Origin: Alphaproteobacteria bacterium
GTDB lineage: Bacteria > Pseudomonadota > Alphaproteobacteria > JAQWUY01
Assembly (NCBI GenBank): GCA_029250225.1
Contig: JAQWUY010000031.1
Span: 1-64,000 of the forward strand
DNA: 64,000 nucleotides
Reading direction: 5' to 3'
In this document: in pieces, positions 8,254 through 46,419 of the stretch
How the letters are laid out: the number at the start of each line of letters is the position of its first letter
Numbering within the stretch: the first letter of the stretch is position 1
Made by a program: the position numbers and the translations under genes
Notes under the pieces: model-generated
Seen by the model: only the letters and a program-made list of their open reading frames with translations
Databases searched by the model: none
What the model was told of the DNA's origin: nothing

Positions 8254-8706
8254 TTATATTTTCCCTATTTGTCGCAAAGCTTCACCCAAAACCATTGCCC
8301 CAGCAGTTGCTATATTTATAGAGCGAAAATCGCCATACATAGGAATTACAACACGGCCATCAACATTGTTATGTACTTCTTGCGGAACACCACAGCTTTC
8401 TTGACCTAATAATAATATATCATTTTCTTTAAAATCAAATTTTGTATATGAGTTTTCAGCTTTTGTTGTTAATAATATTAATCTATGATTATTATTAACA
8501 CTATAATCTTTGAATGCATTCCAACTTGTGTGTCGTTTATAATTTACTTTTTGTATATAATCCATTCCAGCGCGTTTTAGTTTATTATCATTCCATAAAA
8601 AGCCACAAGGTTCAATAATATCAATTCCAATCCCCATACAAGCCGATAATCGCATTAATGTTCCTGCATTTTGGGCAATATCTGGTTGAAACATAGCTAT
8701 TCGCAT
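8254..8706 (-). CDS. trmL: tRNA (cytidine/uridine-34-2'-O)-methyltransferase TrmL
   Basis: A 150-residue SPOUT-class methyltransferase that uses S-adenosylmethionine to methylate the wobble ribose of certain leucine tRNAs. Visible family blocks are the N-terminal FQPDIAQNAGTLMRL, the central ILLLGQESCGVPQEV and the C-terminal knot segment RVVIPMYGDFRSINIATAGAM. Its length is that of a minimal SPOUT protein, with no added RNA-binding domain, as in TrmL/YibK. Its stop lies 3 nt from the stop of ETF-QO on the other strand, and it diverges from the MFS gene. Confidence 0.93.
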   Translation of the reverse strand: MRIAMFQPDIAQNAGTLMRLSACMGIGIDIIEPCGFLWNDNKLKRAGMDYIQKVNYKRHTSWNAFKDYSVNNNHRLILLTTKAENSYTKFDFKENDILLLGQESCGVPQEVHNNVDGRVVIPMYGDFRSINIATAGAMVLGEALRQIGKI

Positions 8707-8822
8707 TATATTATTCCTTTCTTGTTAAAATAAATAATTAAAAATATTTGTTGCATAAAACTATAAATAAGTATATAGCGAAAATAGATATAATAAAAAA
8801 TATTTTTTATAGGAAAAATAAA

Positions 8823-10133
8823 TTGAAACAATTAATTTTACAAGTTTGGTTGTTAATATTATCGGTTTCCATATTAATGGTAAGTCGTGGATTAGGCAGT
8901 GCTTTTATTGGGGTAAGAGCGCAAATAGAAGATTTTTCAATATCTTGGATTACTTTTATTCAGGGTTGTTCGTATATTGGATTTATGATTTCCGGTATGT
9001 TTGTTCCTAAAATTCTAAGAAATATTGGCCATATTCGAGTTTTTGCGACTTGTGCTAGTTTGTCATCAGTTGTTCCATTATTTCAATCAATGTTCATTAG
9101 TCCTCATTATTGGGCATTTTTTCAGATATTTTTTGGTATAGGAATTGCAGGTTCTTATATCGTAATAGAAGGGTGGTTGAACGAAGCAAGTGACAATGCT
9201 AATCGTGGTAAATTATTTGGATTGTACAGTTTGATTTCAATGTTTATTGCATCTGCTTCTCCGTTATTGATTGGACCAATACCACCGGAAAGTATAGTTC
9301 TATTTTTGATTATTTCAATCACTTCTTCATTGGCATTTATTCCGGTTGCCGTTGGTGCTAAGTGGACGCCTACTTATGCAGAATCTGAAACAATGAGTTA
9401 TAAAACTTTATTTAAAAGATCTCCTTTTGGAATGATATCATTTAAATTCAGCTTAATTATTATTAATACATTATTTATGATTTTTATAGTTTATGCTATT
9501 AAAGCCGGTTTCAGTTTAAAAGTCGGCACTAAATCGTTTTTATTTATGGGGGTATTGTCAATATTTACAACATATACATTGGGTTATTTGTCTGACAAAA
9601 TGGATAGACGATATCTAATTATATTCAGTTCAGGTGTAAGTATTATATTCGCATATATGATGAAAATGTCTGTTGATAATGGTGATGAATATTGGTTTTT
9701 AATTTCATCAGTTGGTTTAGGTGGTTTTTTATTTACTTTATATCCATTGATTGTTAGTCACATAAGTGACCGTCTTAAAGTGACGGAAATACTTTCTGCT
9801 TCTTCTTGGATGGTATTATTATCATCTATTATGGGAGCCATTGGTACAATATCAATAGGACCTATAATGGAAACATTTGGTATTAGTGCATTTCCGTATT
9901 TAATAATGATATGTTTGTTGGTTAATTGCGTATACGGAATGTACAGAATTTATGTGCGTAAAGGTGTTAGTTCAGAAGAGCAGGTTGATTTTGTTAGTAT
10001 ATCATCATTAAGTAACACCGTTATTGAGCAAGATATATATAAAATGAAAAAGAAGAAGAAAAAGAAAAAAGTTAGAAAAACAAAAGCTAAAATTAATAAT
10101 AAGAAGAATAAAAAGAAAGCTAAAAGGCGTTAA
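8823..10133 (+). CDS. MFS transporter with lysine-rich C-terminal tail
   Basis: A twelve-helix major facilitator superfamily carrier of about 436 residues. Hydrophobic segments run from LILQVWLLILSVSILMVSRG to a last one near PYLIMICLLVNCVYGMY; a loop YLSDKMDRRYLI carries the MFS-type D-x-x-x-R-R signature. The TTG at 8823 is preferred because AGGA at 8811-8814 precedes it by eight bases; an upstream TTG at 8748 would add 25 residues. The last 30 residues contain long runs of lysine (e.g. KMKKKKKKKK) and are almost wholly Lys, Arg and Asn, which is unusual for this family. The overall look is of the YcaD-like branch. Substrate unknown. Confidence 0.8.
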   Translation: MKQLILQVWLLILSVSILMVSRGLGSAFIGVRAQIEDFSISWITFIQGCSYIGFMISGMFVPKILRNIGHIRVFATCASLSSVVPLFQSMFISPHYWAFFQIFFGIGIAGSYIVIEGWLNEASDNANRGKLFGLYSLISMFIASASPLLIGPIPPESIVLFLIISITSSLAFIPVAVGAKWTPTYAESETMSYKTLFKRSPFGMISFKFSLIIINTLFMIFIVYAIKAGFSLKVGTKSFLFMGVLSIFTTYTLGYLSDKMDRRYLIIFSSGVSIIFAYMMKMSVDNGDEYWFLISSVGLGGFLFTLYPLIVSHISDRLKVTEILSASSWMVLLSSIMGAIGTISIGPIMETFGISAFPYLIMICLLVNCVYGMYRIYVRKGVSSEEQVDFVSISSLSNTVIEQDIYKMKKKKKKKKVRKTKAKINNKKNKKKAKRR

Positions 10134-10166
10134 CCCTCAATTGCACATTTTTATTTTATTGTTTTT

Positions 10167-11213
10167 TTAATCCCATTCTAAAATTACTTTACCACTTTTA
10201 CCCGAATTCATTACTTTAAAGCCTTGTTCGTAATCTTGAATTTTAAATCTGTGGGTTATTACATCGCTTACATCTAGGCCACCTTGTATCATAGCAAGCA
10301 TTTTATACCAAGTATCATACATTTCTCGCCCATATATGCCTTTTATAGTTAAACCCTTAAAAATAAATTTACCCCAATCTAATTCAAAATCATTTTTTGA
10401 AGGTATTCCTAATAATGAAATTGGACTACCTGATCTTAAACAATCAATCATTGTTGTAAATGCTGACGGGGAACCAGACATTTCAAACCCAACATCGAAA
10501 CCTTCTGATAATCCTATTCTATTCACCATTACTTCGCTGAGTTTTTCTTTAGTAACATCAACTATAAAATCAGCCCCCATTTTTTTTGCTAGTTCTAACC
10601 TATATTTATTAATATCAGTTATTACAATTCTTCTTGCACCTACTTTTTTTGCAATTTTCACAGCCATACAACCAATTGGACCTGCGCCGGTTATTAAAAC
10701 ATCTTCGCCTTTTGTATCAAATGATAATGCTGTGTGAACTGCATTTCCTAATGGATCAAGTATTGATGCTATTTCATCACTAATACTATCAGGTATCAGG
10801 ATTACATTTGATTGTGGTAATACCATATATTCAGCAAATGCACCATCACGGTGAATTCCAACACCTTTTGTCTTGTCGCAAATATGTGCTTTTCCTGTGC
10901 GACAATTACGACATACATTACAAGTAATATGACCTTCACCACTTACTCGTTGTCCAATTTTATAATCAGTAACAGCAGAACCTACTTCCACTATTTCACC
11001 TACAAATTCGTGACCAGTTATCATTGGAACTTTTATAGTTTTTTGTGACCATTTATCCCAATTATATATATGCATATCAGTTCCACAAATAGCAGTTTTT
11101 TTGATTTTAATTAATACATCATTTGCACCATATTCGGGAATTGGTGCGTCAAACAATGATAATCCAGACGCTTTTTTCAGTTTGCCTAATGCTTTCATAG
11201 TTTGATTATTCAT
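10167..11213 (-). CDS. tdh: L-threonine 3-dehydrogenase
   Basis: A 348-residue zinc- and NAD-dependent medium-chain dehydrogenase that oxidises L-threonine to 2-amino-3-ketobutyrate. Visible are the catalytic zinc ligand in [13 protein letters not shown] (about residue 43), GHEFVGE with the second ligand, the four-cysteine structural zinc loop ([15 protein letters not shown], about 98-112) and the NAD-binding glycine motif [11 protein letters not shown]. It follows kbl with an 8-nt overlap in the same direction; together the two convert threonine to glycine and acetyl-CoA in two steps. The kbl-tdh pairing makes the assignment firm over other alcohol dehydrogenases. Confidence 0.96.
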
Positions 11214-12405
11214 TTATTACTCCTAATTCTTTACCAACTTGTTCAAATGCTTTTAATACGACATCTATTTGTTTTTTTGTTAATTTAGCATTCATTTGTG
11301 TGCGAATACGAGCCTTTTCCATTGGCACAACAGGGAAAGAAAAACCTATTACATAAACATTTTTTTCCATCAATTTATCTGCCATATCAGATGCTAGTTT
11401 TGCATCACCTAACATTACCGGCACAATAGGGTGGTTTCCATCGATTAATGAAAAACCAAGTTCTGACATTTTTTTACGGAAATAATCAGTGTTTTCTTGT
11501 AACTTTTGTCTTAAATCATCACCTTTTTCTATAATATCAATAGCAGTTAAACTAGCTGATACTATTGATGGAACAAGAGTATTGGAAAATAAATACGGAC
11601 GGCTTCTTTGCCTAAGTAATTCTATTACTTCTTTTTTGGCCGAAGTATAACCACCTGATGCCCCGCCCAATGCTTTTCCCAGCGTTCCGGTCATTATATC
11701 AACTCGCCCCATAACATCACAATATTCAATTGAACCCTTACCTTTTTTACCTAAAAATCCAACGGCGTGACAATCGTCAACCATCGTAAGTGCATCGTAT
11801 TTATCTGCTAAATCACATATTTCTTTTAAGTTTGCAATATGCCCGTCCATAGAAAATACACCATCAGTTGCAATTAAAATATTTCTAGCTCCATCTTTGC
11901 GTGCTTGAATTAATTGTTTTTCTAAATCTTCCATATTATTGTTTTTGTAACGGTATCTTTTTGCTTTGCATAACCTGATGCCATCAATTATTGAGGCGTG
12001 GTTTAATTCATCTGATATAACAGCATCTTCACTAGTTAATATTGTTTCAAATAAACCTGTGTTGGCATCAAAACAAGAAGAATATAAAATCGTATCTTCA
12101 AATCCAAGAAAATTAGAAATTTTTTCTTCTAACTCTTTATGTTTATTTGTTGTACCACAAATAAATCTAACCGATGCCATACCGTATTTATGTTCTTTTA
12201 ATGTATTTATAGCAGATTCAGATATTTTCTCATTGTTTGCAAGTCCTAGATAATTATTTGCACAAAGGCATATAACCTCTTTGTTGTCAGCATTTATTTT
12301 TTCTGATTGAGAAGATTTTATAATTCTTTCTTTTTTATACAACCCTTTATTTTTTATATTTTTTATTTCATTTTTCAATGAGTTGTAAAAATTATTTCTA
12401 CTCAT
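11206..12405 (-). CDS. kbl: 2-amino-3-ketobutyrate CoA ligase
   Basis: A 399-residue pyridoxal-phosphate enzyme of the alpha-oxoamine synthase family that cleaves 2-amino-3-ketobutyrate with CoA into glycine and acetyl-CoA. Characteristic stretches are [14 protein letters not shown] near the N-terminus, [26 protein letters not shown] with the PLP-contacting Asp and His, and [15 protein letters not shown] carrying the Schiff-base lysine (about residue 243). It is the first gene of the kbl-tdh unit; its start is followed on the other side by 205 nt of intergenic sequence shared with the divergent symporter gene. Confidence 0.96.
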
Positions 12406-12544
12406 AGTTTAACCCTTTCAAATACTGTAATTGAATTGTAATTCACCAGAATAATATAAATATACTAAATATTAAAATAAAATTATATACAAATTTATAA
12501 AATGTGTTATATTTCAAAATATTTTATCATTCTTAGGTTAATTC

Positions 12545-12573
12545 TTGACTCTAATTATTATGGTATTTATTTA
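12545..12573 (+). promoter_or_regulatory. candidate sigma70 promoter for the symporter gene
   Basis: TTGACT (12545-12550), 17-nt spacer, TATTTA (12568-12573). It lies in the 205-nt gap between kbl and the symporter, about 30 nt before the AAAGGAGAG ribosome-binding site. Pattern match only. Confidence 0.5.
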
Positions 12574-12610
12574 AATTTAAAGACTTGAACACTTACAAAG
12601 GAGAGTTATT

Positions 12611-13984
12611 ATGTCTCGTGAATTATGGAGCTCACGCACAGGATTTATACTAGCAGCAGCTGGTTCTGCTGTTGGCTTGGGAAATATTTGGAAATTCCCC
12701 TATTTAGCTGGAAAATTTGGTGGTGGTGCTTTTCTACTTGCTTATCTTATTTTAGTATTTACAATTGTAAAAGTTGTAATGTTATCAGAAATTGCTATTG
12801 GCCGTGCTGCTAATAAAAACGCAGTTGGTGCATTTGCTTCACTACATAATAGACGTTGGAAAATAGTTGGCTATATGGGTGTTGTTGCATGTTTTATGGT
12901 TTTATCTTTTTACTCCGTTGTAGCGGGTTGGACTATATATTACACGGTTGAAATGGTATCGGGCTCTCTGTCTGGTTTACAACCTGATGCCTTAACTGGA
13001 AAATTTGAAGAATTTATAGCTGATCCATCTCTGCCTGTTATATATCACGGAATATTTATGCTAATGGTTATTGCCATTGTTATTCGTGGTATCAAAGGCG
13101 GTATTGAAAAAGTATCAACACTATTAATGCCTGCATTATTTATTATTATTATTGCTCTTATTCTGCGTGGCTTTATGCTAGATGGTGCTATGAAAGGCTT
13201 AGAGTTTTATTTAGTTCCTGATTGGTCTCAGCTAGGAGATTTTGATTTATGGTCTGCTGCATTAGGTCAAGCATTCTTCTCTCTATCATTGGGTATGGGT
13301 ACTATGCTTACTTATGGATCTTACCTTGACAAGAAAGAGAATTTACCAAATACATCTTTCCAAGTTGCTTTTATTGACACAGCCGTAGCTTTCCTTGCTG
13401 GTTTATTAGTATTCCCAGCGGTGTTTTCTTTCGGTTTTGATAATACAGCTGGTCCAGGATTAACATTTATTATATTACCTGCGGTATTTAATCAAATGTT
13501 CGGTGGACAATTATTTGGTATATTATTCTTTATACTATTATTCTTTGCTGCTTTAACTTCTGCTATCTCTATTTTAGAGGTAATGACTTCTTATTGGAGT
13601 GAAGAAAAAGGTGTTTGCCGTAAAAAATCAGCAGTAATATTTGGTTTATTAACATTCTTTATGGGTGTGGCTTGTTCTTACTCATTAGGTATTTGGGCAG
13701 ATGTTACACTATCTTCTATTTTAGGTATTAACATTGACCTAGAAGTATTTAATTTAGGTGTATTTGACTTCTTAGATTATGTTTCTTCTAATATATTGTT
13801 ACCATTAGGTGGATTGTTAATTTTAATTTTTGCTGGTTGGATAAAGCCAAAGAGAATTATGGATGAAATTACAAATAATGGTAAAGTAGATTTTTATTGG
13901 AAAAATGCATTTATCATAATGACTAAGTATATATCGCCAATTGCGATAGGTTATTTATTACTAAATTCAATTGGTATTATTTAA
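12611..13984 (+). CDS. sodium-dependent symporter, NSS/SNF family
   Basis: A 457-residue inner-membrane carrier of the neurotransmitter:sodium symporter (LeuT-like) family, which couples Na+ entry to uptake of amino acids or related small amines. The signature N-terminal block GFILAAAGSAVGLGNIWKFPY in helix 1 holds the Na+/substrate site; eleven to twelve hydrophobic helices follow. An excellent ribosome-binding site (AAAGGAGAG) precedes the ATG. The gene diverges from kbl-tdh and is followed by a strong terminator. Nearby threonine/glycine genes make an amino-acid substrate plausible, but this is inference. Confidence 0.92.
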   Translation: MSRELWSSRTGFILAAAGSAVGLGNIWKFPYLAGKFGGGAFLLAYLILVFTIVKVVMLSEIAIGRAANKNAVGAFASLHNRRWKIVGYMGVVACFMVLSFYSVVAGWTIYYTVEMVSGSLSGLQPDALTGKFEEFIADPSLPVIYHGIFMLMVIAIVIRGIKGGIEKVSTLLMPALFIIIIALILRGFMLDGAMKGLEFYLVPDWSQLGDFDLWSAALGQAFFSLSLGMGTMLTYGSYLDKKENLPNTSFQVAFIDTAVAFLAGLLVFPAVFSFGFDNTAGPGLTFIILPAVFNQMFGGQLFGILFFILLFFAALTSAISILEVMTSYWSEEKGVCRKKSAVIFGLLTFFMGVACSYSLGIWADVTLSSILGINIDLEVFNLGVFDFLDYVSSNILLPLGGLLILIFAGWIKPKRIMDEITNNGKVDFYWKNAFIIMTKYISPIAIGYLLLNSIGII

Positions 13985-14003
13985 TTTATTTAACTTTACA
14001 CAT

Positions 14004-14040
14004 AAAAAACCACACTTTAATTTTAGGTGTGGTTTTTTTT
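14004..14040 (+). terminator. intrinsic terminator after the symporter gene
   Basis: Stem CCACAC (14010-14015) with GTGTGG (14027-14032), extended by flanking A/T pairs, followed by a run of eight T. It separates the symporter from the DUF721 gene. Confidence 0.85.
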
Positions 14041-14067
14041 TATTTAAAGATATACAATATTTTTATT

Positions 14068-14592
14068 ATGAATAAATTTAACAGATATTATAATAAATTT
14101 AATAAGAAGATAGATGATAATAAACGAGCAAACGCAACTGTTTCTTTATTGAATAAATCTCAACCGATTTTTAAAAAACTATTATCTAAAAACGGTATTA
14201 ATGATTTTAGAATTATAACAATGTGGAATCAAATAGTTGGTGAAGAATTATCATTAGTATCAAGACCCAAGAAAATAACATATAAAAGGGGGAGCAGAAG
14301 TAATGCTATATTACATATTAGTGTTGTAGGGGCTTATGCTACCGAAATTTCTTATATGGATGGTTTGATAATTGAAAGAATAAATAGTTTTATGGGGTAT
14401 TGTGCTATATCATTAATAAGAATACACCAAGATTTTAATGTAAGTGTTGATGAAATTAAGTTGAAAAAAAATGATCCTAAAATACAAGGAAGTTGTGAAA
14501 AGCTTGATAATATGTTATCAAATATACAAGATAAAGAACTTAAAAAAACACTTAAAAACTTAGGCCGTCATATCATTAAGGAGGAAAAATGA
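14068..14592 (+). CDS. DUF721 (DciA-like) protein
   Basis: A 174-residue protein with a DUF721 domain in the middle (about residues 25-120), recognisable from the ITMWNQIVGEELSLVSRPKKI block, where Trp-x-x-x-V-G is the family core, and a following ILHISVVGAYATEISY. DUF721 includes DciA, the loader of the replicative helicase in many bacteria, but alphaproteobacterial versions are uncharacterised in detail. The start at 14068 is used because the longer frame begins inside the preceding terminator. It overlaps the DsbA-like gene by 4 nt (ATGA), a pairing common in Alphaproteobacteria. Confidence 0.8.
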   Translation: MNKFNRYYNKFNKKIDDNKRANATVSLLNKSQPIFKKLLSKNGINDFRIITMWNQIVGEELSLVSRPKKITYKRGSRSNAILHISVVGAYATEISYMDGLIIERINSFMGYCAISLIRIHQDFNVSVDEIKLKKNDPKIQGSCEKLDNMLSNIQDKELKKTLKNLGRHIIKEEK

Positions 14593-44436: not shown

Positions 44437-44524
44437 GGAGAGATGTCTGAGCGGTTTAAGGTACCGGTCTTGAAAACCGGCGTGGGTCAAACCACCGTGA
44501 GTTCGAATCTCACTCTCTCCGCCA
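44437..44524 (+). tRNA. tRNA-Ser (UGA)
   Basis: 88-nt class II tRNA with long variable arm. Acceptor GGAGAGA/TCTCTCC, anticodon TGA in CTTGAAA, T-loop TTCGAATC, G discriminator and encoded CCA. A DUF262 insertion lies directly behind it. Confidence 0.97.
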
Positions 44525-44564: not shown

Positions 44565-44591
44565 AAAAGCCCGACACTCTCGGGCTTTTTT
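44565..44591 (+). terminator. terminator of tRNA-Ser
   Basis: Stem AAAAGCCCG (44565-44573) with CGGGCTTTT (44581-44589), loop ACACTCT, then T-run. The 41-bp direct repeat starts at the first base of this loop. Confidence 0.85.
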
Positions 44592-44614
44592 GCTATCTTG
44601 CAGTCTATTTAATC
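44574..44614 (+). repeat. 41-bp direct repeat, left copy
   Basis: Begins in the loop of the tRNA-Ser terminator (ACACTCTCGGGC...) and ends ...CTATTTAATC. Identical over 41 bases to 46379-46419. The two copies bracket the DUF262 gene; the distance between equivalent positions is 1,805 bp. Confidence 0.95.
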
Positions 44615-44627
44615 ATATCGGTAAATG

Positions 44628-44656
44628 TTGACAGGAAATATTCATTATGCTAGCTT
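44628..44656 (+). promoter_or_regulatory. candidate promoter of the DUF262 gene
   Basis: TTGACA (44628-44633), 17-nt spacer, TAGCTT (44651-44656). Transcription would start near the ATG at 44664, implying a leaderless mRNA, in line with the lack of a ribosome-binding site there. Inference from spacing only. Confidence 0.4.
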
Positions 44657-44663
44657 CCGTGCC

Positions 44664-46373
44664 ATGACATATAAAACAGAAACTATCAAAAATGTTGTTA
44701 TGAGTATTGGTGATAACAAATACTTGTTACCTGCTATTCAGCGCGAGTTAGTTTGGGATTATGAACAAATAGAAAAGCTATTTGATTCTGTTTTGTCTGG
44801 TTATCCTTTTGGATCCATGTTGTTTTGGCGTTACAAAAAAGATGAAAATAACAAAGATTATAAATTTTATGAATTTTTGAAGATATACGATGAGTATAAT
44901 CGTCAAAACAATCACAATACAGAGCACGAGATTACAGGAAAAGATGAAATCACCGGTATTTTAGATGGACAACAAAGATTGACTGCACTTTTTCTTGGCT
45001 TAAAAGGATTTTTGAATTTACATAAGCCACGCACGAGATGGGATAATTCAGATAATTTTGAAAAGAAATATCTTTTTATTAATCTTTTATATAGTAAGGA
45101 TAATGAAACTGAATATGAGGATATCAGGCCGGAGTTTCAAATAAGGTTTAAATCTGATAATCAGGTTATAAAAGAAAATTCTAGTCAAGATGTTTATTGG
45201 TTTAAAATAGGCAGTGCTTTGGATTGGAAAGAAAAGAAAAGTTGGAAAGAAGTCTTAAATGGAAAAAATATTTCAGAGGAGCAAAGAGATATAATCGAAG
45301 ATGTCTGTTCTGCTATCTATGAAAATTTAATTAATCCTAATAATCCTAGAATTAGTTACTACGAAGAAAACACAGATTCTTTGGATAAAGTTCTCAATAT
45401 TTTTGTTCGAATTAATGCTGGTGGAACACCTCTTGATTATACCGACTTTCTTATGTCGATGATTATTAACCAGTGGGGAGAGGGAAGAGAAAATATTAAT
45501 ACGGCAATTGATAATATTTCCAAAGATTTTGAATTTGATATTCCAAAAGATGTTTTTCTACGAGCTTGCTTATTTTTAACCGGAGAAAACCTGAACTTTA
45601 AAGCAGATAATTTTAAGCAGAAAACAATCAAAAATATTAAAAATGAGTTTGAAGCAATTTCAGAGAGTTTAAGAAAATCATGTCGTGTTTTTAGAGAGTT
45701 GGGTTATTCAAAAAACAATCTAAGATCAAACTTAATTCTCCTGCCGTTGGCTTACTTCATAAAAACTAATGACTTTAATAAGGTTAGTGATGATGATTTT
45801 GTGAAAATTAAGAAATGGATTCAGCTGTCTATTCTAGGAAGGGTTTTTGGATCTCAAACAACTTCATACTTGACCAAACTGAGAAAAGATATTGTTTGGG
45901 AAAGAGATTTCCCTCTGAATGAAATTATTAAGGTGTCAAATGAGGCAAATAAAAATATGGACATTAACGAAGACAGGCTTGATGATATTATTAAAAAAGC
46001 AAAGAAAGGTTCACAGGATAGTTGGGCGCTTCTGACTTTATTGTATCCTTCACATAATTATCGTGATGTAAATTTTCATGAAGATCATATATATCCTTAT
46101 TCTAAACTTAACAATGAACACAAAAGGAATAATGGTGATTTTATATCTAATATTCAATTGTTAGAAGGTGGAGATAATTGTAGTAAAAATGATAGAGAGC
46201 CTAAATTTTGGATGGAAGAATATTGTTCAAAACGCAGTCTTGATCTTAATGACTATAAAAATAAAAATTTTATACCATTAAGTGTTGATTTAACTTTTTA
46301 TAATTTCAGCCACTTTATAAGTGCGCGTAAAGAATTGATTAAAAATAAATTACTAGAAAATCTTAAAAATTAA
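44664..46373 (+). CDS. DUF262 / HNH-type protein, putative restriction or defence nuclease
   Basis: A 569-residue protein. The N-terminal DUF262 (ParB/GmrS-like) domain shows LLPAIQRELVWDYEQIEKL, the ILDGQQRLTALFLGL motif (DGQQR, used for nucleotide hydrolysis in GmrSD relatives) and VLNIFVRINAGGTPLDYTDF. The C-terminal third contains FHEDHIYPYSKLN and, about 20 residues on, SNIQLLEGGDNCSKND, an H/N/N-K pattern of a beta-beta-alpha-metal (DUF1524/HNH-like) nuclease. Relatives include the type IV modified-DNA restriction enzyme GmrSD and BrxU, so phage defence is likely but unproven. Start 44664 (MTYKTETIKNV) fits the family; ATG 44625 is an alternative. It is bracketed by a 41-bp direct repeat and looks inserted behind tRNA-Ser. 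Confidence 0.85.
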   Translation: MTYKTETIKNVVMSIGDNKYLLPAIQRELVWDYEQIEKLFDSVLSGYPFGSMLFWRYKKDENNKDYKFYEFLKIYDEYNRQNNHNTEHEITGKDEITGILDGQQRLTALFLGLKGFLNLHKPRTRWDNSDNFEKKYLFINLLYSKDNETEYEDIRPEFQIRFKSDNQVIKENSSQDVYWFKIGSALDWKEKKSWKEVLNGKNISEEQRDIIEDVCSAIYENLINPNNPRISYYEENTDSLDKVLNIFVRINAGGTPLDYTDFLMSMIINQWGEGRENINTAIDNISKDFEFDIPKDVFLRACLFLTGENLNFKADNFKQKTIKNIKNEFEAISESLRKSCRVFRELGYSKNNLRSNLILLPLAYFIKTNDFNKVSDDDFVKIKKWIQLSILGRVFGSQTTSYLTKLRKDIVWERDFPLNEIIKVSNEANKNMDINEDRLDDIIKKAKKGSQDSWALLTLLYPSHNYRDVNFHEDHIYPYSKLNNEHKRNNGDFISNIQLLEGGDNCSKNDREPKFWMEEYCSKRSLDLNDYKNKNFIPLSVDLTFYNFSHFISARKELIKNKLLENLKN

Positions 46374-46378
46374 TACTT

Positions 46379-46419
46379 ACACTCTCGGGCTTTTTTGCTA
46401 TCTTGCAGTCTATTTAATC
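46379..46419 (+). repeat. 41-bp direct repeat, right copy
   Basis: Perfect copy of 44574-44614, starting 6 nt after the DUF262 stop codon. The left half of the terminator stem (AAAAGCCCG) is missing here, so this copy cannot fold into the hairpin and is the derived junction. Confidence 0.95.

Follow-up and report, generated by a model that had tools for sequence, protein, structure and literature searches.

Behind the tRNA-Ser(UGA) gene of this alphaproteobacterium, a single gene predicted to code for a full-length homologue of the single-chain type IV restriction enzyme BrxU (HEC-05) is enclosed between the two copies of a perfect 41-bp direct repeat, spaced 1805 bp apart (Table 1). The insert has the look of a mobile cassette stripped to the minimum; its general kind is known, but its geometry is unusually clear. 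It is probably either a CIME-like remnant or a trans-mobilised cassette, which a tyrosine recombinase put in at the terminator hairpin; we infer from the sequence the site-specific integration, the restriction activity, and that the enzyme was lost or supplied in trans.

The 41-bp repeat is longer than any other exact direct repeat in the window (the whole stretch of 64,000 nucleotides that was analysed), and it is also the longest one at a spacing of 60-6000 bp in the 304 kb of the contig that were read. The search of the whole 1.197-Mb genome found the 41-mer in two copies, both at the tRNA-Ser(UGA) locus, and because there are only these two it can be ruled out that it is a dispersed terminator element, the alternative that the initial annotation had named against its own reading. 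The terminator of the tRNA gene has two perfect arms of 9 bp each (AAAAGCCCG and CGGGCTTTT) enclosing a 7-nt spacer, ACACTCT (44574-44580). The repeat extends from the first base of this spacer through the right arm and 25 bp further, while the right copy lacks the left stem arm and gave no terminator fold. Between both copies there is one ORF, preceded by 49 bp and trailed by 5 bp. The in silico deletion of the gene together with one repeat leaves an intact terminator joined to the right flank, which defines both ends of the insert. The repeat and the 1,805-bp insert described in the initial annotation were found exactly where it had placed them, and the folding and the comparison of the arms agree with its claim that the left copy begins in the terminator loop.

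Table 1 Features of the insert at tRNA-Ser(UGA), with positions in the window
Feature	Position	Strand	Evidence or remark
tRNA-Ser(UGA), intact, insertion-site gene	44437..44524	+	ARAGORN; Rfam tRNA 51.4 bits
tRNA-Ser terminator hairpin, proposed attachment core	44565..44589	+	Fold -14.1 kcal/mol, z -5.2
Left 41-bp copy, attL-like	44574..44614	+	Opens at the first base of the spacer; terminator restored
Promoter-like pair TTGACA-17 nt-TAGCTT, within the insert	44628..44656	+	Read directly; ~8 nt 5' of the ATG
brxU-like gene, single-chain GmrSD-family type IV restriction enzyme, 569 aa	44664..46373	+	Pfam, PADLOC and PDB matches
Right 41-bp copy, attR-like, without the left stem arm	46379..46419	+	5 bp 3' of the stop codon

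The core site of a tyrosine recombinase consists of inverted arms around an overlap of 6-8 bp, and the element carries the downstream part of the target, which repairs it upon integration. As far as can be read from the DNA, the layout of hairpin and repeat matches this general kind of site. We propose that a unit of 1,805 bp, made up of one repeat and brxU with its short upstream region, would have entered the tRNA-Ser(UGA) terminator by site-specific recombination of the tyrosine-recombinase type, with the terminator hairpin as core site and the 7-bp spacer as overlap. The element would have supplied its own right arm with the 25-bp extension, giving a left junction with a restored terminator and a right junction with the displaced host copy. 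The recombinase would now be gone, the unit being what is left of a larger island or, like a CIME, having been moved in trans by the enzyme of a helper. At the right junction the arm on the side of the element (TTAATACTT) is unlike the host arm, which makes the attR core weak.

The chief rival, unlikely in our judgement but deserving consideration, is a single crossover by RecA (or natural transformation) with a circular or concatenated donor carrying brxU beside a stretch of 41 bp or more from the terminator region of tRNA-Ser in a related strain. Homologous recombination through the 41 bp would yield an identical scar, the length is above the usual minimum for RecA, and the alleles found at tRNA-Ser(GGA) (see below) join their flanks exactly at conserved sequence without any repeat. 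However, homologous recombination leaves unexplained why the repeat starts precisely at the first base of the spacer, and likewise the start of a second repeat, found on contig C25 behind tRNA-Leu(UAA). This repeat of 78 bp (91% identity between copies) opens at the first base of the 7-nt T-loop and takes in the 3' end of the tRNA and its terminator. The cargo here (3.5 kb) consists of a TonB receptor gene and one ORF that matches no Pfam family, with no integrase, and the insert is older because the copies of its repeat have diverged. That two inserts independently start at a 7-nt hairpin loop speaks for site-specific recombination rather than chance homology, although two cases are few. Past the tRNA-Leu(UAA) insert, in the same region (L087, about 8615-14425), a Sel1-DUF2971 gene and a HerA ATPase gene face each other and may form a defence pair.

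A repeat that begins at the hairpin loop might also have arisen if the hairpin had been cleaved at the loop and foreign DNA captured during the repair with duplication of 41 bp. We regard this as highly improbable, since it requires a precise 41-bp fill-in together with a complete gene with clean ends, and the ends of the insert have no inverted repeats; we know of no enzyme that gives a target duplication of such length in a situation like this one. A DDE transposon was rejected on similar features, the lack of terminal inverted arms and the 41-bp size of the duplication.

Repeats were surveyed at 24 tRNAs in 729 kb read (72 kb being N), ~20 of them with sufficient flank. Four of these tRNAs had an exact repeat of 26 bp or more that starts no farther than 70 nt from the tRNA 3' end: Ser-UGA, Leu-UAA, Glu and Gln. 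Behind tRNA-Glu, 53-bp repeats (94% identity) lie 445 bp apart around an ORF of 104 aa (L057 13649-14984; contig C14 97649-98984), with a third, partial copy within the start of a T5orf172 (GIY-YIG-type) gene. Behind tRNA-Gln, a 44-bp repeat (98%, 119 bp apart; L047 8092-8254, contig C32) forms a duplicated terminator without a gene, in the space that separates the tRNA from a convergent gene for a CcrM-like methyltransferase. Neither the Glu nor the Gln repeats begin at a hairpin loop, and they may have another origin than the inserts that start at one. Few other non-tandem, non-coding repeats of such kind appear in the repeat list for the 729 kb, and judged from this list alone the tRNA 3' flanks are clearly favoured. 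In addition, on contig C10 (L041 15-5228) several large ORFs lie in a row upstream of tRNA-Arg(ACG), and two of them contain glycine-rich repeats.

At tRNA-Ser(GGA) two alleles were found between the tRNA and tsaB within the same assembly. One (contig C17; L045, 1-4927) is a type III restriction-modification pair, with mod of 628 aa and res of 908 aa, and the other (C13, L042 end; C19, L076) contains an unrelated ORF with no Pfam match. The alleles share 86 bp at the tRNA end and 78 bp at the start of tsaB, with no repeat; the tsaB match was made with the first 24 residues read from contig C17 and re-checked on the DNA. This exchange looks homologous, and the population seems to be mixed at this site. 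Such unresolved alleles (C13, C17 and C19) in a draft genome raise the question of whether the second copy at tRNA-Ser(UGA) was made at the joining of contigs, and the repeat behind tRNA-Gln likewise contains an exact stretch of precisely 41 bp. Nevertheless, an assembly artefact is extremely improbable: exact repeats of 34, 45 and 78 bp also occur, both junctions are unique sequence inside a 306-kb contig, and the overlaps at contig ends measure 78-86 bp rather than 41.

The insert, with its single ORF, codes for no integrase or transposase, in agreement with the initial annotation. Furthermore, the PF00589 (Phage_integrase) profile had no match in the genome even at E 10, with 72 kb of contig C32 reading N, so that a recombinase located there could escape detection; the control was positive in 14 of 14 genomes. 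Serine recombinases above the cut-off were also absent from the genome. It is because no tyrosine-recombinase match appeared in the genome that we describe the insert as either a CIME-like remnant or a trans-mobilised cassette. Although the genome is rated as 100% complete, it has no PF00589 match, and XerC and XerD seem to be absent or to lie in the N stretch of C32. An integron gene cassette was rejected, there being no PF00589 match that could correspond to IntI and the repeat belonging to the host terminator. Searches for an attP containing the 41-mer, with two parts of the repeat and with the tRNA against viral contigs and by blastn against phages, returned nothing relevant, and no element sharing the att sites of the insert was found in either collection. 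Genome contigs scanned with the insert protein and with a 48-nt tRNA-Ser pattern gave no matches. Neither an empty site nor a donor element nor an excision product was found, this genome being the sole member of its order among those compared.

A 1.8-kb unit that is alive as a one-gene cassette, which the recombinase of visiting phages, plasmids or satellites still mobilises in trans at tRNA terminators, would agree with the 100% identity of the repeat copies (recent or maintained), with the compactness of the unit and the promoter-like pair inside it, and with the inserts that follow several tRNAs of the genome. But the unit is single-copy in the genome, no other gene was found between the same 41-bp repeats and no helper was seen, and we hold this reading to be rather improbable. 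Also rather improbable is the idea of a defence cassette reduced to one gene that travels in trans from one tRNA terminator to another in streamlined bacteria without any tyrosine recombinase of their own, using the terminator hairpin as attachment core.

The identity of the cargo is supported by matches to Pfam GmrSD_N (E 1.1e-28), to PADLOC, where all four HEC-05 models were among the matches listed (best 1.8e-154), and to PDB 7p9k, the BrxU of Escherichia fergusonii plasmid pEFER (4.2e-81, residues 6-516). These matches bear out the earlier assignment to DUF262 proteins of the GmrSD kind with an HNH-like C-terminus. HEC-05 corresponds to BrxU (PMC11411939). Identity to the solved BrxU is 32% and homology is full-length across both domains. 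In BrxU the substitutions S42A, Q101A, R102A, D474A and H475A each abolish phage resistance (PMC8565348), and the counterparts of all these residues are conserved in the alignment of the insert protein, which has the motifs KLFDS, LDGQQR and EDHIYP. The RLFDS and DGQQR motifs of DUF262 in GmrSD_N are present as KLFDS and LDGQQR, and in the HNH (DUF1524-type) part DHIYP, N495 and N504 are conserved. The pEFER enzyme (PDB 7p9k and 7p9m; PMC8565348) has the same motifs, essential residues and single-chain build as the insert protein, but its gene is part of a BREX operon, with brxC on one side and pglX on the other, whereas the one described here stands alone, and the stretch from DHIYP to the distal N is ~20 aa shorter in the insert protein. 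The ORF is intact, and its product would be expected to sense modified cytosines of phage DNA, with NTPase gating by DUF262 and cutting by HNH.

The ATG at 44664 (569 aa) was preferred as start codon over the one upstream at 44625 because homology begins there and the promoter-like pair ends 8 nt 5' of it. With this correction from 44625 to 44664, the initial reading of a precise insertion of a DUF262/HNH gene without integrase stands. The pair TTGACA-17 nt-TAGCTT falls below the threshold of the promoter scan, its second hexamer having only 3/6, but it suggests that the gene is self-contained and near-leaderless. GC content (0.294) and GC3 (0.237) are both inside the range of the neighbouring genes, so composition shows no sign of recent import. 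The patchy presence of BrxU homologues, in 6 of 385 genomes of the class, does suggest their horizontal spread.

The genome of a distant relative (G090) carries a brxU homologue ~6 kb behind tRNA-Ser(UGA). The island that holds it follows directly on this tRNA and, by names read from translations, also encodes a tyrosine integrase, a primase/helicase and an AlpA-like protein. In this relative a self-integrating element at tRNA-Ser(UGA) thus carries a member of the same gene family; the far attachment site (attR) of this island was not found within the 80 kb read. In another genome (G129) 26 bp separate the homologue from the tRNA-Met in front of it, with no repeat found at the locus. The brxU genes of five class relatives had no flanking repeats of at least 14 nt with copies 1.4-8 kb apart. 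Among viral contigs, the single insert protein as query retrieved no close relatives and the alignment retrieved 42 distant BrxU relatives; the 23 BrxU-bearing contigs inspected had no tRNA and no similar integrase nearby.

Inserts bracketed by repeats and devoid of integrase at tRNA or other RNA genes are already known, as is the biochemistry of BrxU. CIMEs are cis-mobilizable elements derived from ICEs that keep attL and attR and have lost the genes for integration and transfer (PMC5704250), and in Dehalococcoides integrase-less islands bracketed by repeats are found at ssrA (PMC3146451). Like both, the insert described here carries its cargo at an RNA gene, an established type of insertion site, between direct repeats that resemble attL and attR, and has no genes for integration or transfer; it differs from them in having one gene, a repeat that starts in the terminator and not in the RNA gene, and no active element found adjacent. 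In Ca. Methylopumilus, a streamlined aquatic bacterium, the additive flexible islands at tRNA-Lys range from 330 bp to 42 kb and from 1 to 63 genes (PMC10872708). They resemble the insert as small tRNA-linked DNA associated with repeats, but there the repeats correspond to the final 20 nt of the tRNA, while at tRNA-Ser(UGA) the tRNA itself is not duplicated. Tycheposons, also tRNA-anchored cargo elements of small genomes, carry a tyrosine recombinase; the insert unit has none beside the tRNA, nor is one detectable in the genome, and it was not classified as such. What is less usual here is the single-gene size, the terminator as putative core site and a host without a detectable tyrosine recombinase.

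The locus illustrates, to the base, how one anti-phage gene can be placed behind a tRNA without harm to the tRNA or its terminator. Together with the type III restriction-modification genes at tRNA-Ser(GGA), brxU at tRNA-Ser(UGA) suggests that the tRNA 3' flanks of this small genome are sites of exchange of defence genes. Should the unit still be mobile, it would count among the smallest defence cassettes, and the helper from which it obtains the recombinase would become the question.
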